A stretch of 64,000 bases of DNA from Krasilnikovozyma curviuscula (taxonomy: Eukaryota; Basidiomycota; Tremellomycetes; Cystofilobasidiales; Mrakiaceae), in contig MVAQ01000031.1 of NCBI GenBank assembly GCA_014825775.1, positions 1-64,000 on the forward strand, given 5' to 3'. The translations under genes were made by a program, and so were the position numbers. This document shows positions 8,362 through 32,821 of this stretch, piece after piece. The notes under the pieces were generated by a model. That model was not told where the DNA came from and ran no database searches. It saw only the letters and a list, made by a program, of their open reading frames with translations. Numbering within the stretch: position 1 is the first letter of the stretch; every line of letters begins with the position of its first letter.

Positions 8362-9712
8362 ATGTCGAAACCATGTATTCCTACTATGTCTTTGGGGCAT
8401 GGAGCAGCTGGCCACAGCATGGAGAGTAAATTGAAGGCTGCCAGGGCTGCCGGTTTCGAGGGCATTGAGGTAGCTCTTTCCTGTTCCGCAGTGTTTCCAA
8501 TGACAAGAGCTGACTGTTTCCATCCAGGTCTTCTATCCTTGCTTAGAATCATTCTCTCAGACTCTCCCAGGCGACACTGCTCGTGATAAGCTTCGCAATG
8601 CAGCAAAGGAAACCAAGAAAATGTGTGACGAGCTTGGGCTCACCATCATCGTTTTACAGCCGGTCTTGAACTACGACGGTATTATGGATCCTAAGGAGCA
8701 TAGCGAGAGAGTTGAAGAGATTGTTTTCCGTTTCGAGGTTAGTCTCAACTCACATTCTGAATGTACCATTTATACGATCGCCGACTGCTTCGTTGCCTCG
8801 TCAGCTTTGCAAACTCCTCGGAACAGACATCATTCAGATTCCAGCAAACTTTCGTCTCGATGATGGGATCACTGGTGACAAGGACAAGGTTGTCGCAGAC
8901 TTGAGGGAAATTGCCGCATTGGGCTTGAAAGTGTCTCCTCCAATCAGATTTGTATATGAGGCCATGTGTTGGTCAACCTTCAACTACACTTGGCAGCAGG
9001 GATGGGAGATTGTTCAGGCAGTAGATTTGCCGAACTTTGGGGTTGTCTTAGGTAAGGCTTTTGGAGAGATGGTCCTACCAGTATTTCCGCCCTTCTCTCA
9101 CACTTTTTTCGATAGATGCATTCCATATTGCGGGTTACGAGTACGCAGATCCAACTCTTCCTGGTGGAGTTCGTCCCGACGGCAAAGAACGACTTGCCAA
9201 ATCACTCAAAGAGCTCGTCGCTACCATCCCAGCTGAGCGCATCTTCTATACACAGCTGGTAGATGCAGAGAGACTCGACGTTCCATTGGGTCAAGGATCA
9301 ACCAGTCCTTACTATCTTGAAGGACAGCAACCTTACATGAGCTGGTCCAGGTGAGCAAGAGACTTTTCCAACGGCCATGAACATAACAGCTGCTAACCAG
9401 CTGATTGCACTTTCAGAAACTGTCGTGTCTTCCCTTACGAAACAGACAGGAAAGGATATATGCCTATTGAAGATGTGGCAAAAGCGTTCTTGGATACTGG
9501 ATTCCAAGGCTGGGTCAGGTAAGTGGTTAACAGGCATCTTGGAGCTTGTGATCAAAGGGGCCCACACTTACCAGCGAATCTGTCTTTACTACTCGCTCAG
9601 CTTCGAGTTATTCAACCGCTTCATCAACTCAGCAAACGAAACCATCCCTACAGACCATGCTCAAAGAGGATGGAAGTCGTGGCTAAGGCTAAAAGAGAGA
9701 TTGTCGTTGTGA
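8362..9712 (+). CDS. qa-4: 3-dehydroshikimate dehydratase (qa-4/qutC type)
   Basis: Converts 3-dehydroshikimate to protocatechuate, the exit step of quinate/shikimate catabolism in the cytosol. Six exons give about 337 aa, close to the usual fungal length. The fold is a xylose-isomerase-like TIM barrel. It opens with PTMSLGHGAAGHSMESKLKA and AGFEGIEVFYPCLES. The expected divalent-metal ligands are visible at strand ends: Glu in VYEAMCW, Asp and His in VLDAFHIAG, Gln in FYTQLVDAE, Glu in SFELFNR. The C-terminus HAQRGWKSWLRLKE is typical of the family. It is the first gene of the quinate block. The upstream 115 bp carry two CGGTGG hexamers. Family assignment is strong; substrate use is from family knowledge. 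Confidence 0.9.
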
Positions 9713-9829
9713 GATGGCATCACAATGCTCATGTCCTGCTTTGAATTCGCAAAAGCGCAAGATTTGCCATGACGAGTAAAAGATGAAAGGATATGAAATA
9801 AGCAAGTGTCTTATCTACTCCATATTGAT

Positions 9830-9975
9830 CCTTGTGGACAAGGGTATGTCAGTCTCTAGAACGACCTCTACTCCACTTACAGCGTCAGTCACGACTTGAG
9901 CCCGAACAATGAGGACGAGCATCCAGTAAAGCATTCGACACGGTAGGAAGATCTGATTTTGCGCGCTTCCCCACC
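9830..9975 (-). pseudogene. Decayed C-terminal tail of a quinate/shikimate dehydrogenase
   Basis: On the minus strand a short reading frame contains IVRAQVVTDAVSGVEVVLET, which lines up with the C-terminal tail of intact dehydrogenase A about 1.6 kb away (IVRAQVAADTAAGAKTVPET). A looser match lies just upstream (QNQIFLPC against QQKIWFGC). The nucleotide resemblance also extends through the shared cattgttcg...caagtc stretch. Three residues are missing between the two blocks. Nothing further upstream resembles a dehydrogenase: no NTD motif and no Rossmann glycines. This looks like a remnant of a duplicated or moved copy lying between the dehydratase and the ABM gene. Seen by eye only; boundaries are approximate. 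Confidence 0.6.
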
Positions 9976-10091
9976 ACAAGACGTTGGGGAGAGTAGGCAA
10001 ATGTGTCGGTACATCTGGTGGTGATTGCACCAGCTGGATTCGATCCGGTGAGTCCTTCGTGGGTAACGCGGGCGCAGTGGGGAGAACCAAT

Positions 10092-10097
10092 CCACCG
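10092..10097 (-). promoter_or_regulatory. CGGTGG hexamer upstream of the ABM gene
   Basis: Written CCACCG on the plus strand, 105 bp before the ABM start codon. Part of the recurring cluster hexamer set. Confidence 0.3.
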
Positions 10098-10201
10098 CTC
10101 GCTTTAAGCCGAAAAAAGCGTAACCTCGTTTCGCCTCTACACCTCACTCGTCATCTCCATCTGTTCTGTGAGTCCTCACCAATCATCTGCAGACATCAAC
10201 C

Positions 10202-10899
10202 ATGGCTCCAATTACTCTCATGCCGCAGTGAGTGGAACTAGCATGTCACGCTTTTCGCCGAGTTACTCGGGTGCTGACGGCTGACCCTGTTTGCTCGACT
10301 GCCTGTCTGTAGTGAGGATATCAAAGGGAAGTTCTGCACCATTGCTAGATTGAAGGCAGTTGAAGGTAAAGCAGATGAGATGGCTAGCTTGCTTGGACCT
10401 CTGTGTCGCTACTCAAATGACAAGACAAAAGAACTCGACACCCTTACGTGAGTCGCATCGAGAATCGTTACAGACCGTGGACAGTCGTAAACTAATACCT
10501 GCTGTTCATCAGTTACCGAGTGTTGAGGGGTGCCGGCCCTCAAAGCGACATATTCACGGTTGTGGAAGAGTGAGTCACCAAGTTTCTCGTAGTTTTCTCA
10601 GCTGAACTTCATAACACAACATCTTTTCGTTCTCTCCTTCCATCAATGATGACTGTGTCTTGTGATTGAATCTCTCTCTCGTCGGGCCTCCTCAGGTACG
10701 CCAACCGTGAGGCACTCACCCATCACCGGAGCTCTGAGGTAAGTGGGCTGTCGCTTCATACCTCCGGTAATTTCATGTAGGAAATTTACCCTCCTCCGTC
10801 TTCTTGTTCTGTCTTCTTGTTCAGCCATACCAAGCCTTTAGGAATTCTGGTACTATTGGTACTACGGAGGTTGTGTTCCATGAAGAGTTTGGATTGTAG
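10202..10899 (+). CDS. Small ABM-domain (quinol-monooxygenase-like) protein
   Basis: Five exons (10202-10227, 10313-10447, 10513-10569, 10696-10738, 10825-10899) join in frame to 111 aa. The protein is one antibiotic-biosynthesis-monooxygenase/dimeric alpha-beta barrel domain: CTIARLKAVEGKADEMASLL, then TLTYRVLRGAG, FTVVEEYANREALTHHRSSEPYQAF, and VVFHEEFGL. Such proteins act without a cofactor on quinols/anthrones, or serve as heme or aromatic-compound handling proteins. Its place between the dehydroshikimate dehydratase and a quinate/shikimate dehydrogenase suggests a role in aromatic (catechol/quinol) handling; that is inference. CGGTGG (as CCACCG) lies about 105 bp upstream. The high intron number in so short a gene fits the rest of the window. 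Confidence 0.82.
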
Positions 10900-11482
10900 G
10901 GTTGGTCGCAGCATGGATTGAAGTCATCGAATGTGTCTAAGATACGCCGCACAACTGTCGTTCCAGTGTCTTACCTTGAAGTTTGACGAGACAATGCTCT
11001 CTGCCACAGAAAGCAATTGTACAGTTCTGGCGGCAATGAATCTTCTCTTCTGTGGACAGTTTCCTTCACAATAGACTGTGTCAACCTCTGTGCTAGTGGC
11101 TTCCAAGCGCCGTCCATCTAGCTTACTCTAAGAAAACTCAACAGAGGAGGTACATATTGCCCCAACCATTACAACTTGAAGCGCCCGAAGAAATGATACT
11201 TAGTATTGGAAATGGTCGATGAGAGTGGAAAATGAACTCATTACGATAACTCTTCTTGAGAATGCAAAGCCACGAAACCTACTGCTGGCTTGTTGCCATG
11301 TAAAACCTTCGTGGAGCAACAATTCTAGAGCAAACAAGCAAACAAGACAATTGTTTGCTACGAGAAGCGTGTGCGTCAGGTGAAATCTCGCGATTGGACA
11401 ATTTACGGTGTTGGCAGAACATCAACTAGAATAGAGACCTGTACGGTGGGATTGAAAAAAAAAAACTACTTCTCAGATTAAT
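10900..11482. other. Convergent intergenic region, ABM / dehydrogenase A
   Basis: 3' ends of two convergent genes meet here. A perfect 9-bp hairpin (AGCAAACAA, 5-nt loop, TTGTTTGCT) lies at 11337-11359. No gene was recognised. Confidence 0.45.
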
Positions 11483-13214
11483 CTACACTTGAGCAGGTGG
11501 AGTGTAAGTCTCTGGAACGGTTTTAGCGCCAGCAGCAGTGTCGGCAGCGACTTGCGCGCGAACAATGTCGAACGTCTCCTGCACTTTCAACTCGCTCTTC
11601 TCACAACCAAACCAAATTTTCTGTTGTTCGATACCTTGGTGAATCATAGCGACTTCACCGGTAACAACGGTCCAGCCGGCGTCCTTGGCGAGTTGACTGT
11701 AAGAACAGAGACGACGGCGAAGTATATGTTCAACATTAATTCTCACTTCTGAGTGAGCTTCTTTTAAAACTTACCAAACAGTGGTCCAAATGTGAGGGTG
11801 GTAGCACATCTCGAGGATAACACCCTATAATCACAAAGGGGGCGACAAAGAGAATGATGTTAGTACACCTGCCGTCACCTTCATAACAACACATATAGGA
11901 GGTTTACCTTCTCTGGCTTGGAACTGTTGGAAATCACATTTACTTCGTCAGCGATTGTCGCGAGTAATGACGGGGAAACCGAAGGAATCAAATAACAAAC
12001 TCACAAAACTGCTTCGATGACAGCTCTAGCTCTGATCTCTCCCTCAGTAACAGGTGGGAAAGAAGGAACAGCTCCAACGATGTAAGCAGGCGTCTCCCAC
12101 TTCAAAGCATCTTCAGGTTCTCTGAGGTGGATGAGCTCTGGGTTGAAATCCTTTGTTGCGTGCTTCTTGAAGTCAGCCATGAGGGTCTTAACTTCGTCGT
12201 CATCTCGGTTGACGATGTAAATTGGATTGCAGTTTAGCGAGACGTTGAGAGCCTGAATATAACCGATTTCATTTTCACGAGATGATCAGTAAAAGGCTCT
12301 GTAGCGCTTCAAGACATCTGCGAGAGATTGAAAATCTTTCCGACACTCACGTAAACACTAGCTCTGCTCGCACCACCACCTCCAATGATCATTCCTGGTC
12401 TGGCCTTATCCTTTGTGAGGATTGGCCCAGCTCCATGAAGGAAACTCTCGGAAACACCAATGCAGCTGGTTAAGAAGAAATGTACCAAACCGCTTAAGAA
12501 ACAGCAAGGTAAGGTTGGCATAAGTCAGTAAAGTATTACTCACTCAGTGTTGTGCTAATTGAAGTACGATGGAACAAATGTCAGGTCAGTCCAAGAAATG
12601 TAGGTATCGCCGGGAATACGAAACTTACGCCAACGAGCTCTCTTTTCCCTTCAGCGTTTGTTCTCCAGAAGACAGTGTTACAAGCACCAATAGCAGCACC
12701 TTCAGGAGTCAGAGCATCGCACTTAGCAGTGATTGCGACCTTGTATGGCCTGGACGAAAAGCGGGAAACGCAAAAGTGAGAAACGTTTCTCCGGAAAAAG
12801 TCAATAGAAAAGATTGAAAGTAACAACCCAAATGATAGTGTTGAAATATCAAACAAAAACAAAGCCATCCTCTTTTGAGGAGACAGAAAAACGTCTGAGT
12901 TTGAACTCGGTACTTACATTGACACAGCGGATCCACCGAAATCGTCCTTCTTGGTCAATTCCAAGAAGGTATCCATTCCGTCCTGGATCTCAAGCTTTGA
13001 GTAGTTCCATGGGACACCATTCAGGTAGTAAGAGGTGTTGTGCTGTAGCAGCAGTTCCAACAATCGTATTAGTTTCGTACTGTGAAACCTACTTGCCCCA
13101 CCAAGTCTATAGCAAACAGACACTTACGAGGAAAGGAGCATAGGTTCTGTGAAGCGGGTACGCAAACAGATACGTCTTCTTTGGTTCACCCTGTTGAACT
13201 TCAGCTAATCCCAT
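11483..13214 (-). CDS. Quinate/shikimate dehydrogenase paralogue A
   Basis: NAD(P)-dependent oxidation of quinate or shikimate (or the reverse) is expected. About 327 aa over nine or more exons. The start at 13214 gives a family-like N-terminus (KKTYLFAYPLHRTYAPFLHN). The catalytic Lys is in SMPYK, the NTD-type motif is HNTDCIGV, and the Rossmann loop is IIGGGGASRASVYALN, followed by IYIVNRDDDEV and GEVAMIHQGIEQQKIWFG. Two microexons are needed to keep the frame: 11 nt at 12544-12554, encoding most of HNTD, and 16 nt at 11908-11923. Convergent with the ABM gene and divergent from the SnoaL-like gene. Belongs to the same longer fungal class as paralogue C. Quinate versus shikimate preference cannot be read from sequence. 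Confidence 0.87.
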
Positions 13215-13533
13215 TTTTTTTTAAAGAGAATTGGTCGACTGCAACCCTTGCCCAAGCATCTGCAGCGGATAGAAACTACGCATCTCAGAACGCCACGAAG
13301 TCATCTGATATATATTTCCTCAACAATAAGAAAGGAAACAAGGGAACGAAATTGAGATCCAATATACTAATGGGTTCGTATCAATCGATCAGTCCACCAT
13401 AAGAAGCCTGAGTGAGGCGCAGCCTTGCCCCAGCAACCAGGTGGACAAAATGTTTACGCGCTGAACTCCCACCTGGCTCCAGCCCAGGATCAAGTCGGTT
13501 CCATCCCTCAAACCATCAAATATTCTTTTAACA
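13215..13533. promoter_or_regulatory. Divergent promoter, dehydrogenase A / SnoaL-like gene
   Basis: 319 bp between start codons. Contains an inverted repeat: CCAGGTGG at 13437-13444 and CCACCTGG at 13469-13476, 24 bp apart, on the SnoaL side. Unlike other cluster promoters, it has no CGGTGG. Confidence 0.45.
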
Positions 13534-14572
13534 ATGGCTCCTCTTCCAATCGGTGCTGAACCACCCCTTCCACCAGCTACTTTGTCAAACTCCCTCAATG
13601 GCACTGACGCTGATGCTCGTAAGCGTTACTTTTTGTTTGCCATTAGCGTACTGCTGCTGATCTCGTTCTTCTTCTGCTAGTGGAAAGATGGAAGCTCCGA
13701 GAGCTGGCTGAAGGATTTTTCTGCCACCGAGATGCCTGTGAATGGACAAAGATGAGAGCTCTCTTCGCAGATGAGGATGCATACGTCTTGTGAGTTCCTT
13801 CACCCTCATTCCAACCATTGTACTCAATAGCTTTCGTTTCTCAGTACAACCTGGTCAGGAGGAATTCCAATTGACAAGTTCATTGAGGTGTCAGAGATTG
13901 GGTTTACCAAGGGGGTCAGGATCGCTCACAGAGGGAACGGGTGCACCGTCGACATAGCCATTTCAGGTCCATCCAAAGGAGTAAGAGCTTTGACAAAGCT
14001 GAAGGGGTAAATTGAGTTTTCCAGTTTCCCGAGCTGCAGTTAACACCAATCATTGACATTCGACTTGACGATGTTCGTAGCACCATCACCCAGCGATTTG
14101 TGATGCCAACTGCTGTGGAAGGAGAAACTTGTGAAGTCGACATCGAAGCTGACTGTCGACTTTGCTTCTTCTGTGAGAAGAAACCAGATGGGTCCTGGAA
14201 GAACCACGTGAGTCGGGTCGTGAACAGAGGTTCATTGATATTACTATGAGACCGTTCTGACTGACTCTGTCTCCGACTGTTCAACATCGTTTCCCTGATT
14301 TTTTCCCCCTAATTAAGTTCTTCAAGGGGTTCTACGAGAAAGATAGAGCTATCCCAGTTGATCCACGAAAGATCCCAGTCTTCGACGACGAGAAGCTGGC
14401 GACCTTCCCCGCTGGGTACAGGTACCTCGCTTACGGTCAAAGTTCTGCTTACAAGATCAAGATGGACTTGCCAGAGAGCTCTGGTCAGGCTCACGATGAC
14501 TTCTACCTCGCTTTTATCGACTGGTTGGAGGGTAAATCGATTGAGGAGATGAAGGTCACTCTGGGGGTGTAA
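13534..14572 (+). CDS. SnoaL-like (NTF2-fold) protein
   Basis: About 243 aa in four or five exons. After a Pro-rich leader, the segment RWKLRELAEGFFCHRDACEW...MRALFADEDAYVFTTWSGG is the start of a SnoaL_4/NTF2-like cone fold. Later come RIAHRGNGCTVDI, RFVMPTAVEGETCEVDIEADCR, CFFCEKKPDGSWKNHFFKGFYEKDRAIP and a C-terminal FPAGYRYLAYGQ block. Members of this fold act as isomerases, dehydratases, decarboxylases or hydroxylases on small cyclic substrates. The promoter (319 bp) is shared with dehydrogenase A. That placement suggests joint expression and a role in the aromatic pathway, which is inference. It could also be a non-enzymatic ligand-binding protein. Confidence 0.75.
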
Positions 14573-14967
14573 AGAGAAAATGGGTCTTAAGACTGGTATC
14601 CCTGCAGTGTTACCTTTTATTCTGTACTAAATAGAAATTTCTGCTGCGAAGTCCGCAAGATCATTCAAATGTTCTCGAGACGATGAGCTCCAATCCTGTT
14701 GTTGCTGACGCCAAAACTTTCACCCGCTCTTTCTGGTCAGTTTTCTTTCTTCGTTTTGTATCATTGCTTTCTGCTGGGTCTTTTACATAAGGAATTCTAT
14801 TCAAAACTGCATAATTAGATCTTTGCTATAGAAAGCAATAACGATTCTCCCCGCAACGATTTGGTATCTATCCGCTCTCACATTATTATCACGGCTGAGG
14901 CTCCTCGGAACAGTCACCGCCTCAGAGGTGAAGCTTCAAGAAGCTTCAAGACTGCCCTCTTTTACAA

Positions 14968-17900
14968 ATGGAAGAAGAAGAGGGCCAGTCTAGCAAGAGG
15001 CGTAGGGTCACGAAAGGTTAGTCTACCAACAAGACATTCGAACGAAATGAGGCCCGTTATTGACCCTCTGTTTTTTGCAATCAAATCTTCACGGCTTGTC
15101 TACTGCCCACCTCTCTTTCTTAGCTTGTGACTCTTGCTCCAAGAGACGAAGGAAGTGTGAGGGACAGCTCCCAGCTTGCTCAACATGTGTAGCAACGGGA
15201 CGAGTGTGTCAGTACACAAAGTGAGCAACTCGGTATCATCTCACACAATTCAGACGAACAATTTCTTACCCTTTCCTATTTTCCTCTTCAGGATAGCCAG
15301 AAAAAGAGGACCGGCAGCTGGATTTGCTAAGACAGCGTCTCTGTCTAAAGAACGGCAGCAACGACTTGAGTCATTGCTGGGGGAGTTGATATTCGTTGAT
15401 CCGTCAATAGGTGATCTTGCACTCTTCTTGCTTACCAGAGGTCAAGATGCTTCCCAACGGAATACTCTAATGCCGGGTCGAAATGGTGTGGTCCCGTTTT
15501 GCGACGAGGCGACCAAAGTTGCGATCTGGGAAAGATCTAAAGCGAAGGGGGTCGTTGAAGATCATGTTGCAGCTATTGTTGCGACAAAGGATGATGACGG
15601 CCTGAAGGAAGAGGAAGACATGGACGATGAAGGGCAAGAAGGCAGCTTCCGCCCACGGCGGTCTTCAATCAGTCCTTCGCTTCCTCTGGGCTCTCATTCG
15701 CATACCCAGGAGTACATCACGACTCCATCTCTAGAGGACTCGATGTGGACAGCGGGCTCCAATGCAGCTTCGAGCTCTTCTCATCCTTCTTTCCCAACGG
15801 CCCCCTCCTCCAACACCATCACTGCACTCGACCATCAAGACAGTCTGCCGTTCGATATACCCGAATTTGCAGCCGAATCCCGTGCACCGTTTGCCGGTAT
15901 CTCCGATTCGCAGAACTTTGAGCAAACTATTGGCCCTATGCACCTCGATCAGAGTAACATGTTTCAAAACTTCTTCTCGTTACCCCCAAGCCAGCTATTC
16001 CCTCAATCACCTCCGATACCCTCCTCCAATATTTCATCTCAGGACAAATCCCATAACAAAACCCTGGAGATCGTCAACTTCCCAGCCTCTCAGCAGCACG
16101 CTTTGCATCAAAATGAAGGGTTCCTCAACTCCCTGCCCTCAACACCAACACTGGACTCAACGTCAATCACAATTCCAGAGCCAAAGTTCATCCCTGCTTC
16201 AATTCACTTTGGTCCATCTTCCAGTTCCACCATCATGCATGCACTGCAACAGCCTGTCAAACTACCTTCCGTCACACCATCTTTCGCTCAGCTACCCCCT
16301 CCAGCCGATTGCTACGAACTGGTCGACACGTATTTCAACTCTGTCCACCTATGGCTCCCAATAGTCGATAAACGATCCGTCGTTGCATGGTCAATGTCTC
16401 TACAGATGGAGGAAACGAGGCGACAGAATCCAACCTTGCCGACCGAACTGATATTCACCATCATGGCATGCGCGCTGCCATTCTGTCGACTGGGTGCTGG
16501 ACCAGAGAAGAGCGACGGAATCAGTGTTGTGAAGTTTGTGGAACTAGCGGAAGCCCGGATCAGGAGAGTCATCTCAGCTCCATCGCTGGAGACAGTCCAA
16601 AGTTTGATTCTGCTCTCGACAGTCCTGCTGGGTGAAGGAGATCTATTCAAATCGTCGGCTTATCTCTGTAAGCTTCTTGATGTTTTGGGAGTTTCTGTCA
16701 TTGGCCTTATTCTTCTGATCTTGCAGACTCTGCTGTTGGGATAGCGCTTAATCTTGGGCTACATAGCTCAACTTCACCTATCTACCAACATGCTCAGGAA
16801 CAGTCAGTATATGCTCGAAGAACACTCCACTCCTTGGTCATCATTGATGTGCTTCTTGCGCTCCGGCTGGGTCGAGCTCCTGTCATCACCGCGAATCTCT
16901 ATGAATCAACGCTTCCATCTCAGATGGGACCAGAGGAGGTCGAAGTATGGCGACCCCTCAGTACCGACACTCTACATCCAGAATTTCCTACCCCAGCTGA
17001 ATCCCTTTACAGCAGAGGTTCCACTTTTGTTCGATCCAGCGCACTGTCAACTTTCAAAGAACTGTGTTCATTGTCTCTGATATGCTCAGATCTTGCGGTG
17101 CGGCTGAACTCTACCTCCGGCGCCAGCTCCACACTCCCCGAAATCTTCCAACGCTTGGAACTTTGGGAGAGGAAGGTTCCTGCTAATATCCGGATACGGA
17201 AGGGGAAATCAACACCAACGCATCATGTCGAATTGTGGATGATGTACCACTCAGCGGTAGCACTTTGCTCTAGGGGTATGTCGCCTCCTACAGAGTACTC
17301 AGACGCCATCCTCGTCCAATCAGTACTCCAAGCTATTGAATTGGTTGAAGAGTCGAACCGACTCCAACTCTTCCTTCAATCGCGACCCCAAATGGACTTC
17401 TGTTTCATCACTCTCTCCTCCTCCCTGCTCCTCTGTGCGCCAAAAACACCTCTGTGCAGAATCCCGTCTCAGACGGATGTGTTGGTCCTAGCGCTAAACC
17501 AGCTTTCGAAAGTCTGGCCGACGGCTACAGGAACTCTCGGTGTGGTGCGCTCAGCTTTCAAACTGACGATGCCCGAGGAGGATAGCGACAACGCAAGGAG
17601 AAATGGTACTTCAACGGGCGACCTGGTGCTCTCAAGCTGGACCAATCTAGATACACCTGCACCTTCTCAAATATACCAAAATACCGCTACGTCACCAACA
17701 GAACCTCAGCTTGAAGGGTCGATTCTATCCAGAGCGCCGGGTGCCAATGAGATTCAAAACAAGCACCTCACCGACGTAGAATTTGCAGGATGGTAAGATC
17801 GTGTTTACTCACTGATGCTTTAATCTACAACACTGAAGAAGAATTGTATCTTTATGTTATCTTAGGGAGCAAGAGCCGAATGAGATACTGTCTTGGCTAG

Positions 17901-18028
17901 GTGTCCAAGGTCAAACACGACCTAACTCTCCCAACAAAGGGATAGAGGACAACGATCTGATTGGTCGCTGGCTCAATCAACCAGACTCTCTTCAGATGAT
18001 GTTGAACAGCATGTCGAACGGCCAGTGA
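14968..18028 (+). CDS. Zn2Cys6 transcription factor (candidate cluster activator)
   Basis: The start was chosen because it leads in frame through a basic stretch (SSKRRRVTKACDSC) into a full binuclear zinc cluster: CDSCSKRRRKCEGQLPACSTCVATGRVC, six cysteines with C-x2-C-x6-C and C-x2-C-x6-C spacing. Exon 1 ends at 15016; exon 2 begins at 15124. After the cluster come YTKIARKRGPAAGF and a coiled linker, then a long Ser/Pro-rich region. A fungal_trans middle-homology domain follows (CYELVDTYFNSVHLWLPIVDKRS...LGRAPVITANLYESTLP). The C-terminus is WLGVQGQTRPNSPN...LQMMLNSMSNGQ. Total is roughly 860 aa. Lies inside the quinate block, so it may regulate it. It does not resemble the AROM-related activator qa-1F/QUTA beyond the zinc cluster. 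Regulatory target is inference. Confidence 0.86.
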
Positions 18029-21696: not shown

Positions 21697-21834
21697 GGGG
21701 TTGAGGTGGGCGGTGGAGGGTCTGTCGCTCGTGTAGCAACAGCGGCCTTTGCTGCCCCTCCTTTAACAGCCAAGACAATTTTTTTTGGCCAGTTATCCTC
21801 CAAACGACCACTGCAGGTCGGTTTGAATGGAACA
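21697..21834. promoter_or_regulatory. Divergent promoter, Nudix / MFS transporter
   Basis: 138 bp between start codons, with CGGTGG at 21711-21716 (15 bp from the Nudix start, about 119 bp from the transporter start). Confidence 0.45.
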
Positions 21835-23785: not shown

Positions 23786-23892
23786 TGCACAGAGGTAGAT
23801 AGTGTATTTCCATAGATGCTTTACAACTGTATGTTATTGTACAACAACTTGCTAATTTGTAGTCCCACCTATCGATGATCCCCCCCTCTAAA

Positions 23893-26632
23893 TCAACGAC
23901 AAATCTCCCTCGGAAGCACCTTCCTCGTCAAACTCCAAAACTGCAGTCTGACTAAATCCAGATCCACGTCTCTCTTCGACAACTGAATCCACCCATCCGC
24001 TGATCCAAAGCCACAGCCCTTGCCCACAGGATGCGAGGAGTGTGCAAGATCCAAGATGATTCCGCCGGTGTTGGAGTTCTTTAGACTGTAAGGTAGGTCG
24101 GAGATCTCAATCTTATTGCTACAAACGACGATGATTGACGGTGGCCGACCTATCGATAGTTCCTCAAGTTGGTTGAGGTTGGTGATGGGTACGATCTCGT
24201 TAGCAGTCTCTTTGTCTGTTGTGATAGACGGGAAGATCCAGCCTTGAGGTAGTAGTAAATCTACGGAGGACGAGCAAGTGGTGATCTTCGTTGTTGGATT
24301 AGTAAACCCTGTCGTTGCCTGAGGTGTTGATCCCAGCGTAAACACTTTAGGAACACACATCTCTGAGAGCGCTACCATGACTTCCCTTCCTAACCACCCA
24401 TCAGCACCCACTATGATCGCAGAAGAACGGTTGCTTATCGCGTTGGCAGGTGACAGATGATTCGAGATGCACGATTGGATCGCGAGGGCGTTGAGGTTGT
24501 GTAATAAGATCCGCTGTGGGCGATGCTGAAGATTTTCGTCTAAGAGAGTCTTCTCGGAGACGACAAGAGCTATGTCAGCTGATCCAGTTCTTCCAGCCAT
24601 GGCTGATATCTCATATTCTGGAACTGGTGATGGTGATTGGATTGGAATTCGTTGAGGAAACAACACACCGGCGAAATCTTCTTGGTGGAATAGGTCCTGC
24701 AGAGATATCGATTCTGACGGTATGGCCATTGAGAGGTTTAAGCTAAGATGTTCGAATCCTGCTTGGAGCTGAGCTGCACCATTGATGGTTGGTCTGTGTG
24801 ATGTTGTGTACTGGGCGTAATCGTAGACGACTTTTGGTGAGACCAGGCCGTTGATGAGGAGTGAGTCTCTAAATTGGAGGTAAGAGAAACATGGGAATGA
24901 CGTTTCATATCGCGTTGAGAGTCTCTGGTGTGTGACGGGCGTGAAGGTCTGATTATGGACCAGTGTTGACCTTCCCGAAAAACCAAAGTTCAAGGCAATG
25001 AGGGGGACGCCGCCGCGAGCCTTCATGTGAGCCTGATAGTTGAGCAGATCTAGGTTACAGGAGGTGAAGATGACAGGCTTGACTATCTTAACCAGGTCAG
25101 CCCCTAGCGATACGGCTCGTTGATAGATCGCGTCGATCTTGGGACCACCCCACCTGGACTCTGCGTTGGCAAGGTTATCATCATTTGTCAAGAAACAAGT
25201 CATAATGATCTGAGTGTTCGACTTCTGTTTCCACCTCAGTAAGCTTCGGATCTCGTCGTCCGACAATTTTAACTCGACATCGACGAAGTCACACCCGAGC
25301 TTGAAACCATGATGGACGAGGGTGATATATTCCTCTTTTGAACCTCCGAATGCGCCAAGTCCTTGGCCACTTGTTCTGAGACAGTAGATAATGGGTAGTG
25401 GTGAGTTTTGCCTGAGGAAGCCGACTCGGAGAGTGATGGAGTTCATGTAGAGAAGAAGCCAGTTTGGTGGAGGTGTGGTATGGTCTACTTGTGTAGGTGA
25501 CGGAGTCCGTTCTCGCTGAATTTGGATTAGCGTATCTATCTTGAGCTCAACTGCGTCGCATCCAGCTGTAACATGATCCAAGAACGCTGCATTGGTGAAA
25601 GCCATCTCGTCGTCTCCGCTGAGGAAGAGGGAGGTCGTATGGGACTGAGAAGCAAGGGATCTGAGAGGTGAAGGATTGGATTCAGACAGAACAGTTGAAC
25701 GCAGAAACCGTGGAAGATCCAATTCAATATGCTTCAGAGCGAGCGGATGAGGCGGTTGTAGTTCACGCGCAGGCGATGTCGAGACGAAAGTGAGGTTGGA
25801 ACATTCTTCATACCAGGGAAGACGTTTATTCCAGACTGAAAACATAGTTGGAATTTTTTTTAATACAACAACTCGACTGATAGGAGTAAGCATGGCATAG
25901 AGCGGAACTCACTATTGATATAGTTGTCTTTCCAAGTCGCCCAAGTACTTCTTGTCTCTTTACGGAGCAGGTACGAGAACATTTCCTCTTTGTTCCTACA
26001 TACGTGAATGACGGGACCTCCAGATCGAGCCCAGCCAGTCAACAGCCTCCTGTTCTCTTTTATGTCAACCACGCCCCCTCCTAAAACTATGACCTTCCCT
26101 TCTCCATGAACTTGAAGCAATTGCTTTAAGAGAGCAGTTTCATGCTCTCTGAAGGTCTCCCATCCCAAACGAGTGACGGTGTCTTTCACGCTGACGTTGA
26201 AAACCCGTTCATAGAGAATGTCGGCGTCTATAAACGGCCGTCCAAGGAAAGTCGATGCTAGCAGACCTACTGTGGTCTGAGCGACGATGCAACACAAAGA
26301 GTAAGCGATTTTCTTACGGCTCGTATCGATAAAGAGCATAAAGCACTTGCCTTCCCACTCCCTCGAAATCCTATCATAAGAATCGATGCATTTTTTTTGA
26401 ACTTTCCATCCGTAGCTGTCGAGAAAGCAAACAAATATAAGGTCAACATAGGGTTGTAAAGGAAGCAGTTCTTCATGCTGGACTTACACTCTGGAAATTC
26501 TAGGGTTTCACCACGCCCACTCGAGGTTTCCACTATCCGGTCGAGCAAGGCGATATTGACCAATGTTCGCAACGAGCTGACATCGTCACCTGAAGGACCA
26601 GCTGCCCTCGTCTCTGAAGGAGTATCCGTCAT
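23893..26632 (-). CDS. qa-1S: QA-repressor homologue (qa-1S/QUTR): shikimate-kinase-, dehydroquinase- and shikimate-dehydrogenase-like pseudo-enzyme
   Basis: Fungal quinate repressors derive from the last three domains of the AROM protein and bind the pathway activator. About 837 aa in four exons. Shikimate-kinase-like part, residues ~58-190: P-loop GFRGSGKTTVG, FIDADILYERVF, FREHETALLKQLL, VIVLGGGVV. Type I dehydroquinase-like part, ~230-500: LRTSGQGLGAFGG, DFVDVELKL, ADLVKIVKP, SRLSTRYE-like block. Shikimate-dehydrogenase-like part, ~530-837: AIIVGADGWLGREVMVAL, IILDLAH. The active-site His of the dehydroquinase (HDF) is replaced (MTCFLTNDD). The SDH NTD motif reads HNLNALAI. This supports a regulator, not an enzyme. 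One intron, 26277-26350, has a GC donor and splits the P-loop between Lys and Thr. Divergent from dehydrogenase B, 166 bp apart. Confidence 0.86.
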
Positions 26633-26798
26633 TGGGAGGAAGAGGAGGCCACGGTGGCCATGTTGTCGAAGGAGGAGCGAACCTCAGATTTGATAAAGAA
26701 AGGCGGAAGAAACAATCGTGGGTAATTTGTTTTTGCGTCTCACCGCCCAGCTATCTCGAGAAGTGCTAACCTTCGCTTTACCACCAAACTCGCCAATC
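26633..26798. promoter_or_regulatory. Divergent promoter, QA repressor / dehydrogenase B, with palindrome
   Basis: 166 bp between start codons. A perfect 13-bp palindrome GGCCACGGTGGCC (6-bp arms, one central base) lies at 26647-26659 and includes the cluster hexamer CGGTGG (26652-26657). It sits 15 bp from the repressor start codon. A dyad is what a dimeric Zn2Cys6 factor would be expected to bind. Confidence 0.5.
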
Positions 26799-27975
26799 AT
26801 GGCTGAATCGATCTCCAAAAAGTCTTTCTACATCTTTGGATATCCCATAGCCAAGTCCAAGAGTCCTCTCCTTCATGGGACAGGCTTCCAGTATCACAAC
26901 CTGCCGCACACGTTTCAGATCATTGAGACTGAGAAGTTGGACAATGGAGAAGTGGATATCATACAGTTGATCAGATCACCTAGCTTCGGAGGTGCTGCTG
27001 TGACAATGTGAGACTCAGTAATTCTGTTCTTGTTAGTTCTTCTTGGTCTGATCGGTTTCGTCGTCCCCTGCCCTAGGCCGTTCAAGATCGACGTGAGATC
27101 TCACAACTTCAATTTTCTCACTCATTTAGTAATGTAAATTCTACTTCCCTTGAACAGATCATGAAATACCTCGACGAAGTCACTCCAACTGCAGTAACTG
27201 TCGGCGCTGTCAACACTATCATTCCCAAAGAAGGAAAACTTATCGGAGATAACACTGACTGGGTAGGGATTCTCAGACTGGTCAAGAAGCTGTTGAAGCA
27301 ATCCATGGGACTCAACCCAGAGTCAACCGGTTGTGTGTTAGGTGCAGGAGGAGCCGGTCGAGCCGCTAGTAAATGAGCTTCCTTCGATAATTATTTCCCG
27401 CAGTTGTCTCAATATCACTAATCATTGTACCGCCTCTGTAGTCTATGCTCTACACGCTTTAGGATTAAAGACGATCTACCTAAGAAACCGCACTCGCTCC
27501 AAAGCTCAAGAAGTCATCGATTCTCTGCCCTCAGATTTCAACGTCAGCATCGTTGACTCCTTAGACGCTAGCGTCTTCAAAGATGGCCCTCCAATTGTGA
27601 TTGTTGGAACTATTCCATCCAAGGGCATCTCATTATTGCCTAGCCCAGATACTATATACATGGACCCTGCGCTGTTAGGTCATACGTCTGGTGGTGTTGT
27701 GATTGATATGGCCTGTAAGCTTTTGTATCTGCTCTGCTATCCTCTGTTGCTGAATCTCAAAATCTCTCCTTAACCTGTCTACAGATCTTCCTCGTCGAAC
27801 ACCACTAGTCCAACTTGCTGAATCATCACCTTCTTGGGCCATCGGTACGGGTATTGAAGTTCTGTTGGAACAAGGATACGCGCAGTTCAAAATCTGGAAT
27901 GCGCTTGACGCCCCACAAGAATTGATCCACGAGGCGGTGATGGGTGTTTACAACAAAGAAGCTGACGGAAAATAG
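26799..27975 (+). CDS. Quinate/shikimate dehydrogenase paralogue B (canonical AroE-like)
   Basis: Rossmann dehydrogenase acting on quinate/shikimate. Substrate-binding motif YPIAKSKSPLLHG, catalytic Lys in VTMPFK, GAVNTI, DNTDWVGI (Asp of the catalytic pair), GAGGAGRAA dinucleotide loop, LRNRTRSKAQ, C-terminal GTGIEVLLEQGYAQFKIW. Five or six exons, roughly 300 aa. The 16-nt exon 27077-27092 (PFKID) carries the catalytic Lys. Divergent from the QA-repressor gene and so likely co-controlled with it. In Neurospora and Aspergillus the quinate dehydrogenase likewise lies in a cluster with the repressor. Most similar of the three paralogues to classical SDH; quinate specificity is inference. Confidence 0.87.
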
Positions 27976-28047
27976 ATGTTATGCAGCAATGCTTTCAGAT
28001 GTAATGTTTTAGATTGAACCAGAAACAGAAACGCGAGCATGTCCCAA

Positions 28048-29354
28048 CTATTCGCCTCTCAGAACCTTTCTACCGGCTTCTCGAACTTCAAAAGGAACTA
28101 CCTGCCCTGTCCAGAGGTATGTTTGCTCAAAGCAGCCTTCAAGGACAACCTCGACTCCACATATAGTCTTCCAACCTCTTTCCTCTGCAACACCTCTCAT
28201 CAAAGTCATTCTAGGCTGTAGTTACGATAAGTCACATTCAGTGACCCTCCTTGCATGAGAATACTTCAAACTCACTTTGTAAGCCATTTCAAGAAACACT
28301 GGAGTCTCTGGGATAGCCATGAACTCTTTGGGCGTCCCAGCAACACTGTATTTATGCGAGAAAAGCATCTTCGCGATCTCGTAAACACTCTTCTCCGCCG
28401 GCGACTGTGGCTCGATGGATGGGATCGCACCAACTCCTGCACAAAGTTTGACACCTTTAGAGTCCAGTTCTTGAAGAGCGGCGGTCGCTTCTTCGACGGT
28501 ATTCAAGGCGCGGAGATCCCACTGGGGAAACTGTTCGATTGTCGCTTTGGTCTCTGAAGGGTCCCGGTTGATCAAGTAGATGGGAGATAAGTCCATCTTG
28601 TTCATTGCGTAGATGGCTGCCCTCGTCGCACCGCCCCCACCTAATTACATGATGCAGTATGCAAAGACACACACAGAACTTAGCACTCTCGGAGCCAATT
28701 GAAAGCAGGAGAGCGATAACAAGCATACCAATCATCAAAGCAGCTGCTTTCCCAGGCTGAAATTTCAGAGGCGTGTCTGGGTGGAAGGGAGTCGGAGTGC
28801 CAGTGAGTGCAGTGAGGAGCGAGTTTCCAACCCCTGCAGTATCGAGATTGGTGCCGACATGGGTGACAGAATCGTCGTCTTCCTTACGGAAGTAAGTAGT
28901 ATTTACTGATCCAATTGCTTTGGCAGCTGGTGTGAGCTCATCCACAAACGGCATGACGGCGAGCTGTTGGGCAGGAGCGATCTCAATCAGTCATCTCGCG
29001 CGCACAACTCGGAAACTAAAGAGCTAACCTTCAATGGCATCGTAACACAGGATCCCAGAGCGTATGGCTGCTTCATCTCAACGTGCCAAGAGGCGTTAGG
29101 ATCGTCCAACGTTTTGCAGTCAGAGATTCCATATTTGAACTTGGGCAGGCCGAGTGCTGGGAAGATCACATCGAAGAGCGAGGGGGCGACTGAGTGAGAG
29201 ATTGGAGTCTGTATGAGGTAAGTTAAGCAATTGTTTAGCTTGATGTGCGAATGGCAAAAGAAGGAATAGGGATGCTCACTCCGAAAATCCACACTCTGTT
29301 CCTCTCGTCCTCAGCTTTGACTTTGGGTCGAACTTCTGAGTAGATGGAGGTCAT
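28048..29354 (-). CDS. Quinate/shikimate dehydrogenase paralogue C
   Basis: About 345 aa in five or six exons. From the start at 29354 it reads VWIFGTPISHSVAPSLFDV (substrate motif), then GSCVTMPLK (catalytic Lys), FVDELTPAAKAIGSVNTTYF and GTNLDTAGVG, where the usual NTD reads NLD. It continues with MIGGGGATRAAIYAMN, YLINRDPSE, VGAIPSIEP, FLEMAYKPRMT, GWKTICGVEVVLEGCFEQTYLW, and ends VREAGRKVLRGE. Same long fungal class as paralogue A, in contrast to the AroE-like B. Tail-to-tail with B (72 bp between stops), and upstream of the maleylacetate reductase stop. The altered NTD may change substrate choice. Confidence 0.85.
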
Positions 29355-29664
29355 AGTTGTACGGTGAAAGAAGACTCCAGAAAGATGAAGATTGTGGTTG
29401 AAAGCCCACAAAAAGCCATGTGTGCTAGGTCTCGCCGCCGACTGAGCGGTTCGTGAATAGTTCATCCACCTCGACTTGTTTTGTTTTCGCATTCCCGCCT
29501 CAGCGGGCCGCGTCACAAAAGACCATCTCTGACAGTCTTCTTCCAAAATTTCTTCAGCAGTGGAAGAACTGAGGCTGTCACGAACAAGTGGCTTGCAAGA
29601 ACTGAGGGAAATTCTGAGGAAAAGCGCAGATGTAGAACAGATACATATACATTTGCATGTAAAA

Positions 29665-31140
29665 TCATTCTGGTCTAGTTCCGTGAAAAGCGTCTCTTAG
29701 TAGTTTGAGCAGCTTCTCTTTCTCTAAAGGGGCAGGGTTTGGGTATGGAGCATTAGCAGCAATCTCAGCCGCCTTCTCTAGGTCTTCCTCTTTGAACCCA
29801 AGCTCCTTGAGCGAGTACGGCGCGCCGTGATTCTTTGCGAGATCGTACAGTCCTTGAGCAGCATTGTTGACACCCAAATTCTTTGCAACTTTGGCGATGG
29901 CTTCTTTGGCAAAAGGAGTGTTGTAGGCGACTGCGTGGGGGAGAATGACGGTGTGTGTTTCAGCGTGTGGCATGTTGAAGGTGCCTCCCAGCTATCAGAC
30001 CGGTGCAAAGAAGCAGTCAGTAATGCGAAAGAAATGCAGAAAATCCATGGGAAACAACGCCCACAGTATGGCACAGCTTGTGGTGAAGCGACATTCCTAC
30101 AGCTCCCAGACAAGTTCCACAAGACCAAGCGCCGAAGAGCGCGTTGCTTCTGGCTTCTTTGTTGCCAGAGTCTGATTGAATCACGGGTAAAGCTTTGGCT
30201 ATACTAGCAATTCCTTGCTCTGCCAAAGAATCGATGATTGGGTTAGATTCCTTTGAATATAGCGCTTCAACCTTTAAGGAAGAGAGGAGCTCGTGAGCGC
30301 TGCCGTCTGAGGTTGTTGGGAACGAAGGAATGACAGGGACTCACAGCATGAGCAATGGCGTTTAAGCCACTGGTGATTGTCATTTGTGCTGGTAGAGTCA
30401 TGGTGAGGTCAACATCGTAGATGATGACTTGAGGTAAGACGAGGTTGGTCTTCTGTGTAGTTTTGAGGTTATTCTTCGTCTGACCAATAATTGGAGTAGC
30501 TTCTGATCCAGCACTAGAGCACGGCTCATTAAGAGAAAACCTGACGAGAACAAACAAAGGTTTTTATGCTCACTAGGTCGTTGGAATGACGATTTGCTTC
30601 AGTTTACCATTTGAATGAAGAGCAAGAGCTTTTCCGAGACCAGTGGTGGAACCACCGCCAACAGAGACCTTGTGAAAAGTAAACCAGCGTGTAGGTATTG
30701 GAAATCTGTCAAAAGATACCCTTGTGTTTGGAAAACTCACGACACAATCAGCACCTAGTTTCTCAGCGACCGACAACGCATCAAAGGTTACTTCCTCCGG
30801 AGTATCTGCCCACCACAGTGACTTCAGTTTCATACGCCTTGAGATGGCAGAGCAAATTTGGACTCACGCATGGTAGCATTAGAGTACAGACCGACACAGA
30901 GCTCCCCAATCGAAGCCTTGACAGATTCACCTGAAGATACTTGCTGAGGAGTGGTGAGGACCAAAGCTTTTGAGCACCCAAGCTTCTTGATCTCATCTGC
31001 AACCTGGGATCTAAAGAATGAATTAGGAAACTACATAAGCCGAACTGCTCGAGGAGCCAGATATGGACGCAGGATTCGTACACGGTCCCAGATCCGAAGA
31101 TTACCCTCGCGGGAAGGGCGTTGTAGACGAATGGTTGCAT
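29665..31140 (-). CDS. Maleylacetate reductase
   Basis: Iron-type alcohol-dehydrogenase-family enzyme that reduces maleylacetate to 3-oxoadipate with NAD(P)H. Opens MQPFVYNALPARVIFGSGT, the standard start of the family. Then VADEIKKLGCSKALVLTTPQQ, VVSVGGGSTTGLGKALAL (nucleotide loop), VIPTTYAGSEATPIIGQT, PQVIIYDVDLTMTLPAQMTITSGLNAIAHAVE, GMSLHHKLCHTLGGTFNMPHAETHTVILPHA (metal/substrate histidines), and ends RDAFHGTRPE. Eight or so exons, about 355 aa. Divergent from hydroxyquinol dioxygenase, with 191 bp between start codons. That is the expected pairing, since the dioxygenase makes this enzyme's substrate. CGGTGG lies 7 bp upstream of the start codon. Confidence 0.92.
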
Positions 31141-31331
31141 GTTAGAACGGTGGAATGAGTGAGAAGAATGTTGTTGGCAGTGTGTGATGCGCTCAAATAG
31201 CAGTGTTCTCGAAGGCGCGTCAAATCAATTTATCCACTTCCCAAAGCGCCACAAGTCCACTCAACGTACAAAACCTCCTGCTGGTTCACCTCTCGACCAC
31301 GATATTCGCTGACATTCCACTACTCGAAGAA
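31141..31331. promoter_or_regulatory. Divergent promoter, maleylacetate reductase / hydroxyquinol dioxygenase
   Basis: 191 bp separate the two start codons, giving coordinated control of consecutive enzymes. CGGTGG at 31147-31152. No clear TATA box. Confidence 0.5.
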
Positions 31332-32821
31332 ATGCCTGCAGGTTCAGAACCACGCCCAGTTGGAAAAGCTGTAGCTGATGGTAAGCGGATGGCTGAAGTG
31401 CAGCGCAATGAGTCCCCACTTTTAAGTTTCTGACTTGTCCTCGCAGCTTTGGCTCGAGGAGCTCCCAACGTCGACTTAGTAGGTTGTTCTATTCTTGGTT
31501 TGGCCGGAGTGCAGCTATCTGATGCTGCTTGTTGAACCTTAGGCCAAGCTTCCAAATCTCACCGACATGTCACCAGACACCATCACTGAAAATGTATTTG
31601 CCATCAATTCTCTTTGTGATAACCCGAGACAGAAGTTTGTATTTGAGAAACTAGTTCAGCACCTCCATGACCTTGTCAGGGAGACCTCTCTGACGACTGA
31701 GGAGTGGATGTGAGTAGGGCCATCATGTTACCAACAATGTTGAACTGGCTGATTGATATCCTGGTTTTCTCGTGTGGCTAGGCAATCTATACAATTCTTG
31801 ACTAAAGTCGGCCAGACATGTGATGACTTGCGTCAAGAGTTCATCCTGCTGTCTGATATTTTAGGTGTCTCTGCGCTTGTCGACTCTCAAAATCACCCAG
31901 TACCAAAGGGATCTACTGCAACTGAAGCTACGATTCTTGGGCCATTCTTCACCACTGACGCGAAGACGATCACCCACAACGAGTCCATCGCTTCTGAAGG
32001 AAAGGGTGAATACGTGAGTAATTATTTCATTCATCGAAACTTCCTCCATTTCGCTGACTATCAAATTCCAAATAGATGTATGTCTCTGGAAGAATCCTGA
32101 ATCTTGAAGGAAAAGGCGTACCGAATGCTACCGTCGAGACGTGGGAGGTAAGTGATTCTCATGTTTCCAGGCGGAGTACTCCTTCCAAAGTTGCTAATAA
32201 CCATGACTTCCAACTATTTTCAGACGGACGAGGATGGATTCTACGACACTCAATACGCTGACAGACAAGAAGCCGACTGCAGAGGTCGAATCAAAACGGA
32301 TTCCGAAGGTTGCTTCGCTTACAGAGCTGTCCTTCCAGTTGCCTATCGTCAATTTTTTCCCTTCCTGGCTCTGGAGAAGTTAGGAGACTGACATACTCAT
32401 TTTTTATTACACAGCTATTCCAAACGACGGCCCAGTTGGCAAACTCCTTCGATCTCTTAATCGACACGTTTTCCGTCCCGCTCACCTTCATATTATGGTC
32501 TTGGCAGAGGGTTACGAAGAATTGATCACTGCACTCTATCCAAGGGGTGACCCTTACATAATGAGGTGAGCGTCAATGTTTAGGTTTATCTCAGTTCGCT
32601 CAATCTGACCATCGCTCTGCAGTGACGCCGTCTTCGGTGTGAAAACTAGTCTGATGGTTGACATCACCGAGGTGAAAGATGAAGAGAAGGCGAAGAGCCT
32701 TGGGTTTCCACACGGCCCATACTGGAATCTCGAGAAAGACTTCGTGATCATCACCAAGGAGCAAGCAGAGGTCGAAAAGAGGAAGAGTTTGAAGAACTAC
32801 TACGCTTCACTGCAGAAATAG
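31332..32821 (+). CDS. Hydroxyquinol 1,2-dioxygenase (intradiol)
   Basis: Non-heme Fe(III) ring-cleavage enzyme turning hydroxyquinol into maleylacetate. About 340 aa in eight exons. The N-terminal dimerisation region reads ALARGAPNVDLAKLPNLTDM, ITENVFAINSLCDNPRQKF and EEWMQSIQFLTKVGQTCDDL, then RQEFILLSDILGVSALVD. TEATILGPFF opens the catalytic domain. Iron ligands are visible: Tyr in DGFYDTQY, Tyr in VLPVAYPIPNDGPVG, and the two His of RPAHLHIMV. C-terminus LYPRGDPYIMSDAVFGVK and YWNLEKDFVI. The early start (31332) is needed for the GKAVADALARGAPNVDL segment. Spliced-out pieces have normal GT-AG ends. The last core enzyme of the pathway cluster. Confidence 0.92.

Follow-up and report, generated by a model that had tools for sequence, protein, structure and literature searches.

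Quinate/shikimate and hydroxyquinol genes at one locus of the basidiomycete Krasilnikovozyma curviuscula

Do the genes for quinate and shikimate breakdown that lie beside genes for hydroxyquinol ring cleavage in Krasilnikovozyma curviuscula serve a single pathway? The locus in question occupies positions 8362-32821 of the window, by which we mean the whole 64,000-nucleotide stretch analysed here (bases 1-64,000 of contig MVAQ01000031.1, or C243, 134,342 bp long, from an assembly of 22.4 Mb in 387 contigs). The original prediction held that quinate/shikimate genes lie together there with genes for a maleylacetate reductase (MAR) and a hydroxyquinol 1,2-dioxygenase (HQD). Our gene models and family assignments confirm this arrangement, and the enzyme identities proposed hold at the family level by Pfam, NCBIfam and PDB matches. 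Judged from the sequence, the reading towards which we lean slightly is that a quinate cluster has taken in the ring-cleavage pair, and that quinate would pass through protocatechuate and hydroxyquinol to 3-oxoadipate.

In this scheme three proteins of the shikimate/quinate dehydrogenase family, SD1, SD2 and SD3, would act first, the NAD-type SD1 and SD3 oxidising quinate and shikimate and SD2 perhaps shikimate. The dehydration of dehydroquinate would fall to a type I enzyme from another locus, either AROM (contig C330) or an AROM-like protein (C89), and the dehydratase of the locus would yield protocatechuate. A decarboxylating flavin adenine dinucleotide (FAD) monooxygenase, encoded at 55630 or by a paralogue on contig C376, would convert protocatechuate to hydroxyquinol, HQD would open the ring and MAR would give 3-oxoadipate. 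A pseudoenzyme repressor would sense a pathway compound and restrain a Zn2Cys6 activator, and the two halves would be induced together. If this is true, a fungal metabolic cluster has been extended past its textbook end point by absorbing the next pathway.

Gene content of the locus

Because the window is intron-rich, we wrote a gene finder for the purpose and trained it on long frames taken from the window itself. The models are predictions made without transcripts, and several splice junctions were corrected by hand. The locus extends from the dehydratase start codon (ATG) to the HQD stop codon, both as modelled, and its genes follow the order dehydratase, ABM, SD1, SnoaL-like, Zn2Cys6, UBX, Nudix, MFS_1, repressor-like, SD2, SD3, MAR and HQD (Table 1).

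The first gene can be assigned firmly, at the family level only, as a predicted dehydroshikimate dehydratase. Its product scores 105.4 bits with Pfam AP_endonuc_2 (in a model with an earlier last exon) and 108.2 bits with NCBIfam QuiC, far below the cut-off of 1200 of that two-domain model. Shikimate_dh_N is detected in SD1, SD2 and SD3 (62.7, 78.2 and 53.9 bits, Pfam), and all three keep the catalytic Lys and Asp. SD2 passes the NCBIfam model TIGR01809 (Shik-DH-AROM) with 218.2 bits, the cut-off of 196 not being reached by SD1 (137.8 bits) or SD3 (145.2 bits), and it is 48% identical to the corresponding part of AROM from the same genome; these matches make it a shikimate dehydrogenase of the AROM type. 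The motif that follows the second strand of the cofactor fold is NRD in SD1, SD3 and a protein encoded on contig C161, and NRT in SD2, AROM and the C89 protein. An NRD motif goes with NAD and an NRT motif with NADP, and by this rule the motifs suggest that SD1 and SD3 are NAD-type and SD2 NADP-type. SD3 is 70% identical to Phenoliferia RQP46_005488, and in a 21-row tree it pairs with a Cystobasidiomycetes protein (support 87/88); the trees gave no resolved placement for HQD or for SD1, whose branch is very long.

The C161 protein is a fourth member of the shikimate dehydrogenase (SDH) family, encoded at 4295-5388 (+) of piece C161:8000-17999 in a model without its N-terminus. It groups with Collybia nuda (70% over 268 columns), apart from Pucciniomycotina, and horizontal transfer and differential loss are candidate readings of this placement.

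On the hydroxyquinol side, HQD and MAR can be assigned firmly at the subfamily level from their sequence matches. The best PDB matches of HQD are 8r2v (1.3e-114), labelled merely as an intradiol dioxygenase, and the hydroxyquinol 1,2-dioxygenase 8r2w (1e-106), the best catechol dioxygenase reaching 1.6e-34. HQD shares 61-71% identity with its 19 best database relatives. For MAR the best PDB matches are 3jzd (1e-105), 3hl0 (3.3e-103) and 3w5s (1.5e-102), followed by 3iv7, "alcohol dehydrogenase IV" (3.8e-61), and the remainder from 1.3e-27. Of these, 3jzd, deposited as an iron-containing alcohol dehydrogenase, and 3hl0 are described as members of the MAR subfamily (PMC5125639). The MAR and HQD genes diverge from a 191-bp gap. 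A member of the CoA-transferase family is encoded on contig C29. One HQD match, 69% identical over 78% of its length, is filed under the fern Adiantum nelumboides and is probably a fungal contamination.

The ABM, SnoaL-like and MFS_1 genes are interspersed among the catabolic ones, as they might be in a biosynthetic cluster fed by dehydroshikimate or protocatechuate, with these proteins serving in tailoring and export. However, MAR and HQD are degradative, and no polyketide, peptide or terpene synthase family is present among the window proteins scanned with Pfam, which makes a biosynthetic role very improbable.

Table 1. Predicted features of the locus and of the monooxygenase region, in window coordinates
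Feature	Position	Strand	Basis
3-Dehydroshikimate dehydratase (qa-4/qutC type), 6 exons, last exon 9601-9712 set by hand	8362..9712	+	Pfam AP_endonuc_2, NCBIfam QuiC
Small ABM-domain protein, 111 aa	10202..10899	+	Pfam ABM 31.2 bits, cut-off 23.1
SD1, shikimate/quinate dehydrogenase family, NRD motif, 328 aa	11483..13214	-	Pfam Shikimate_dh_N, catalytic Lys and Asp; splicing rechecked
SnoaL-like protein, faces SD1 across a 319-bp region	13534..14572	+	Pfam SnoaL_4 21.0 bits, below cut-off 24
Zn2Cys6 transcription factor, candidate activator	14968..18028	+	Pfam Zn_clus 30.0 bits, Fungal_trans 54.3 bits; N-terminal exons joined by hand
MFS_1 transporter, 485 aa	21835..23785	+	Pfam MFS_1 145.2 bits; splicing rechecked
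AROM-derived repressor-like protein (SKI, DHQase I without His, degenerate SDH), 813 aa	23888..26632	-	Pfam, residues, relatives
Divergent region, repressor-like gene/SD2, 166 bp	26633..26798	.	Sequence
SD2, stand-alone AROM-type shikimate dehydrogenase, NRT motif	26799..27975	+	TIGR01809 218.2 bits
SD3, quinate dehydrogenase-like, NRD motif	28048..29354	-	Pfam, relatives, trees
Maleylacetate reductase (MAR), 342 aa	29665..31140	-	Pfam Fe-ADH and ADH_Fe_C; PDB 3jzd, 3hl0, 3w5s
Divergent region, MAR/HQD, 191 bp	31141..31331	.	Sequence
Hydroxyquinol 1,2-dioxygenase (HQD), 341 aa	31332..32821	+	PDB 8r2w; database relatives
FAD monooxygenase, candidate protocatechuate hydroxylase, 440 aa, outside the tight cluster	55630..57692	+	PDB 8gsm
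Fungal-type transcription factor beside the FAD monooxygenase	58226..61613	+	Pfam Fungal_trans 90 bits; no Zn_clus match in this model

The fungal qa/qut set that had been attributed to the locus turned out not to be full. No type II dehydroquinase (qa-2/qutE) was found among the locus models, or in the assembly with DHquinase_II in searches that read exons singly. No Sugar_tr permease (QA-Y/QutD class) was found in the locus, whose transporter belongs to MFS_1 and was not recognised as Sugar_tr; the Sugar_tr matches listed are all on other contigs (9 of 302 candidates scored). The sole assembly match to a type II dehydroquinase signature lies antisense to an FG-repeat-like gene. Family searches of the genome with single exons can miss genes: the Fe-ADH search missed the window MAR, the Shikimate_dh_N search recovered SD2 alone of the three dehydrogenases, and the protocatechuate-beta search of the assembly gave no match and overlooked a dioxygenase on contig C370. 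Because known genes were missed in this way, the absences from the assembly are suggestive only.

Type I dehydroquinase (DHQase) domains were found in AROM and in the C89 protein, an AROM-like SKI-DHQase-SDH protein whose model covers about 366-2830 (+) of C89:1-9000 and reads back at the N-terminus as far as the first bases of the contig. This protein keeps the DHQase His, Lys and Arg and the SDH Lys and Asp. About 4 kb from its gene, at C89:7046-8313 (-), lies a second dehydratase-like gene, 31% identical to that of the window. C89 is possibly a second quinate locus, with a candidate catabolic dehydroquinase.

The step from protocatechuate to hydroxyquinol

Conversion of protocatechuate to hydroxyquinol requires a decarboxylating monooxygenase, and no candidate for it is present among the gene models of 8362-32821. 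Of the linked pathway to 3-oxoadipate that the original prediction drew, the idea of a hydroxyquinol route is supported, but the joining step has its candidate outside that interval, at 55630-57692, in a gene that had been overlooked. Its product, an FAD monooxygenase closest to hydroxylases of the decarboxylating type, is a likely linking enzyme and a candidate protocatechuate hydroxylase on the strength of its PDB matches, the best being 8gsm, "4-hydroxybenzoate decarboxylase" (7e-48), followed by the tropone 2-monooxygenase 8rqh (5.9e-40), the decarboxylative vanillate 1-hydroxylase 8x38 (1.8e-38), and 6-hydroxynicotinate and salicylate enzymes.

A paralogue 52% identical to it is encoded at 2894-4876 (-) of piece C376:119000-126000, and its best PDB match is decarboxylative vanillate 1-hydroxylase (2.6e-46). 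The gene adjoining this paralogue resembles a transporter of the major facilitator superfamily (MFS) by eye. A third, more distant paralogue is on contig C261. FAD_binding_3 matches occur at six places in the assembly, and those on C177, C1 and C339 look unlike aromatic hydroxylases by eye.

The activity sought is documented in other fungi. In Aspergillus niger PhyA makes hydroxyquinol from protocatechuate, in a PhyA-HqdA route; no basidiomycete homologue is reported to cluster with PhyA (PMC8262893). The basidiomycete yeast Trichosporon cutaneum is reported, in papers of 1979 and 1986 cited in PMC8262893, to have the same activity, its gene being given there as unidentified. In Trametes versicolor MNX1-MNX3-HDX1 forms the hydroxyquinol route (PMC12915361). 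As these sources describe them, all three have in common with the window, where the likeness is one of sequence only, an FAD monooxygenase giving hydroxyquinol from a benzoate and subsequent intradiol cleavage; in the portions of the two papers available to us, none of the three is described as joined to quinate genes (PMC8262893, PMC12915361). If our assignment is true, the 55630 gene and the C376 paralogue would be concrete candidates for the T. cutaneum step, which in 2021 still had no known gene in basidiomycetes.

Protocatechuate might also be handled elsewhere in the genome. In a non-exhaustive search one other intradiol dioxygenase was found in the assembly, at 3614-4954 (+) of piece C370:68500-78400, and it adjoins 7-bladed lactonase and alpha/beta hydrolase genes. 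This gene set could represent a basidiomycete-type protocatechuate or catechol branch, variants of which are described as resting mainly on gene-cluster evidence (PMC13094099), or it could contain a second hydroxyquinol dioxygenase; the window pair would then be minor on quinate, as the hydroxyquinol route is in A. niger (PMC8262893). On the other hand, the C370 protein is 42% identical to the window HQD, its closest PDB structures are of the hydroxyquinol type, and its joined model scores 63 bits on the NCBIfam protocatechuate beta model, against a cut-off of 296. By sequence it may belong to the catechol, protocatechuate or hydroxyquinol branch, and we consider it improbable that this set, and not the locus, deals with protocatechuate.

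The AROM-derived protein and control of the locus

In the QutA/QutR, GaaR/GaaX and TanR/TanX modules, the repressor is homologous to the last three domains of AROM, and according to a working hypothesis it is a dead enzyme that binds the inducer and so frees the activator (PMC10512348). The repressor-like protein of the window has the same SKI-DHQase-SDH architecture: an early model of 764 residues scores 104.2 bits with DHquinase_I and 86.8 bits with SKI, and its SDH part, missed by Pfam, aligns with AROM. A GC-AG intron at 26277-26350 (-) was recognised in its gene, and the SKI P-loop is whole only when the gene is so read. The protein keeps the P-loop Lys and the DHQase Lys, but has lost the His motif of its DHQase domain together with both Lys and Asp of its SDH part. 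The window protein thus resembles the repressors of PMC10512348 in its derivation from AROM and its loss of catalytic residues. The modules described there have an activator gene adjoining the repressor gene. In contrast, no adjacent activator gene is present in the window, where the Zn2Cys6 gene ends at 18028 and the repressor-like gene starts at 23888, with the UBX, Nudix and MFS genes between them. The Zn2Cys6 protein, a possible counterpart of QutA and QA-1F, has Zn_clus and Fungal_trans domains.

A database search with the repressor-like protein returned 34 proteins at E <=0.001, the three best being from Leucosporidium, Meredithblackwellia and Phenoliferia (36-38% identity). We built a tree of 26 rows, made up of 23 of these proteins and three from this genome. 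In it 20 rows stand apart from the AROM-like and ascomycete rows and split into clades of 5 and 15. The smaller clade holds the window protein, on a long branch, the Leucosporidium, Meredithblackwellia and Phenoliferia proteins and one metagenomic protein; the DHQase His is lost in all five and the Lys kept in two. In the larger clade, mostly from Rhodotorula, Rhodosporidiobolus and Sporobolomyces, all 15 rows keep DHQase His, Lys and Arg. Neither the Lys nor the Asp of SDH is seen at the aligned columns in any of the 20 rows, although these columns fall in a poorly aligning stretch. With DHQase residues kept but SDH ones lost, the proteins of the larger clade are perhaps enzyme and regulator at once. 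If our reading is true, these proteins provide a basidiomycete setting for the change from AROM domains to repressor, with relatives keeping the dehydroquinase active site.

For signs of shared control, the upstream regions of 8 core genes were compared with 10 control regions from elsewhere in the window. The 7-, 8- and 9-mers of widest occurrence are found in 4, 3 and 2 core regions, respectively, and shuffles average 3.4, 2.7 and 2.1. The pattern CCG-N6-CGG has three occurrences, spread over the dehydratase and SD3 regions, and none in the controls, but we give it no weight because 63 CGG-triplet spacings were tried. In A. niger the protocatechuate genes are reported to rise on quinate and in a repressor deletion (PMC12610400). 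A stronger proposal would be that K. curviuscula has one quinate regulon reaching from quinate to 3-oxoadipate, with protocatechuate as a passing intermediate, a dead AROM-derived protein as the sensor, and the 55630 product as the basidiomycete protocatechuate hydroxylase whose gene had not been identified according to PMC8262893; from the sequence we regard this as rather doubtful.

Linkage of the two halves in relatives and other clusters

For three window proteins, the best among the named relatives belong to Pucciniomycotina (four lineages checked), in keeping with the basidiomycete source that the original prediction assumed. Synteny was judged from locus tags and sequence-record sizes in protein tables, equal size being taken to mean the same contig. 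Among the best 120 of 6293 HQD matches, 11 species have both an SD3-type protein and HQD, and the two are linked in three of these. Phenoliferia psychrophenolica has HQD (RQP46_005487) and the SD3-type protein (RQP46_005488) at consecutive tags on a 642,237-bp contig, the only case in which the linkage is firm. In Pseudohyphozyma bogoriensis both are on one 59,278-bp contig, and in Meredithblackwellia eburnea both are on each of two contigs of 2.52 and 3.96 Mb, which is weak evidence. The eight species without linkage seen are Phenoliferia sp. Uapishka_3 (short contigs), Leucosporidium creatinivorum, Rhodotorula paludigena, Rhodosporidiobolus poonsookiae, R. ruineniae, R. lusitaniae and R. nylandii, and Rhodotorula toruloides, represented by several strains that are not comparable.

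Of the 12 species in which repressor-like and SD-family proteins both occur, half have them on one contig or at a distance of 4-8 tags: Leucosporidium, Meredithblackwellia, R. nylandii, R. lusitaniae, R. azoricus and Microbotryomycetes sp. JL221. Such linkage was not seen in Phenoliferia psychrophenolica, Pseudohyphozyma, R. poonsookiae, Sporobolomyces koalae, Rhodotorula pacifica or R. dairenensis. Conserved synteny of the two halves, which the original prediction had named as a check, is borne out by the consecutive tags of Phenoliferia psychrophenolica but does not extend beyond 3 of the 11 relatives. The linkage is real and partly conserved, but not general, and it is probably functional.

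In the qa/qut cluster of Neurospora and Aspergillus, quinate dehydrogenase, dehydroshikimate dehydratase, an AROM-derived repressor and a Zn2Cys6 activator are encoded together (PMC12610400). At the family level the window locus has counterparts of the first two, together with an AROM-derived repressor-like protein and a Zn2Cys6 factor as candidate activator. It differs in lacking a detected type II dehydroquinase or Sugar_tr permease, in having three SDH-family genes together with MAR and HQD, and in being of a basidiomycete. A closer parallel is found in many genera of Ceratocystidaceae, where CDO4, a predicted secreted intradiol dioxygenase, is flanked by dehydroquinase, dehydratase, quinate dehydrogenase and permease genes (PMC8896014). 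As described there, the CDO4 locus resembles ours in placing an intradiol dioxygenase beside quinate dehydrogenase, dehydroshikimate dehydratase and GAL4-type zinc-finger genes. Unlike HQD, CDO4 is from ascomycetes and has a signal peptide, and the dehydroquinase and permease are present in its locus; particular to the window are the phylum, MAR, the hydroxyquinol type of the dioxygenase and the failure to find a dehydroquinase. The main text of PMC8896014 contains neither the word hydroxyquinol nor the word maleylacetate. The earlier statement that the ascomycete qa cluster ends at protocatechuate has to be amended for the secreted dioxygenase; MAR is not described at that locus. Because CDO4 beside qa genes is known in ascomycetes (PMC8896014), we do not claim a new kind of cluster. 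In the open-access literature we found no basidiomycete in which HQD or MAR is reported as joined to quinate genes; relevant clusters may be described in Gluck-Thaler and Slot 2018, Martins 2019 and Kuatsjah 2024.

Several observations weigh against a single pathway. The locus has no detected dehydroquinase or Sugar_tr permease. The top NCBIfam match of the 55630 product is 3-hydroxybenzoate 6-monooxygenase, with 161 bits against a cut-off of 459 (the fifth is salicylate 1-monooxygenase, 115 bits, below its cut-off of 446), and its gene is separated from HQD by 22,808 bp and about nine other genes. PMC10735191 treats genes as clustered if they are <=6 genes apart and merges clusters <30 kb apart; by the six-gene rule the 55630 gene is outside the cluster, and the 30-kb rule includes it only if it belongs to a cluster of its own. 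The C370 dioxygenase may handle protocatechuate or hydroxyquinol in place of the window pair. No promoter motif is shared beyond chance among the core regions tested, and the QA-1F site is not enriched in them (3 matches with <=3 mismatches, 4.8 expected). The activator and repressor genes are not neighbours, unlike those of the A. niger modules, and in Phenoliferia psychrophenolica the repressor is on a different contig from SD3 and HQD. Linkage of the halves was not seen in 8 of the 11 species. Finally, the authors of PMC12610400 stress that linkage is unnecessary for quinate control in A. niger; because control there needs none, linkage in the window is no proof of co-control, and a lack of linkage would be no disproof.

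The missing promoter motif and the eight species without visible linkage would be expected if the two halves were neighbours and not one pathway, MAR and HQD being a hydroxyquinol module of general use (4-hydroxybenzoate, phenol, resorcinol and so on) with its own regulation, and the candidate hydroxylase gene is adjoined by its own transcription factor gene (58226..61613). Such an arrangement accounts less well for the consecutive SD3 and HQD tags of Phenoliferia and the shared 59-kb contig of Pseudohyphozyma. The chance that one of two intradiol dioxygenases falls <=10 kb from quinate genes is about 0.2% by our own arithmetic, which uses the non-exhaustive assembly search. We therefore take two independent modules to be unlikely, if deserving of serious consideration, and lean slightly to the reading in which flux from quinate would reach 3-oxoadipate through the window pair.

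Elsewhere in the window, two genes at 38302-40091 and 40562-41752 (+) form a tandem pair encoding alpha/beta hydrolases, the second model being probably incomplete. We considered these as enol-lactonases and dropped that role, as the PcaD-type scores of the first are far below the cut-offs and also because the hydroxyquinol route needs no such enzyme. The piece of the gene at 43004 that was scanned gave no Pfam match. The other window genes encode, by Pfam, a PX protein, Serinc, a YchF-type GTPase, a septin, Aha1, BAG and MARVEL proteins, and a GT90 match stays under the cut-off.

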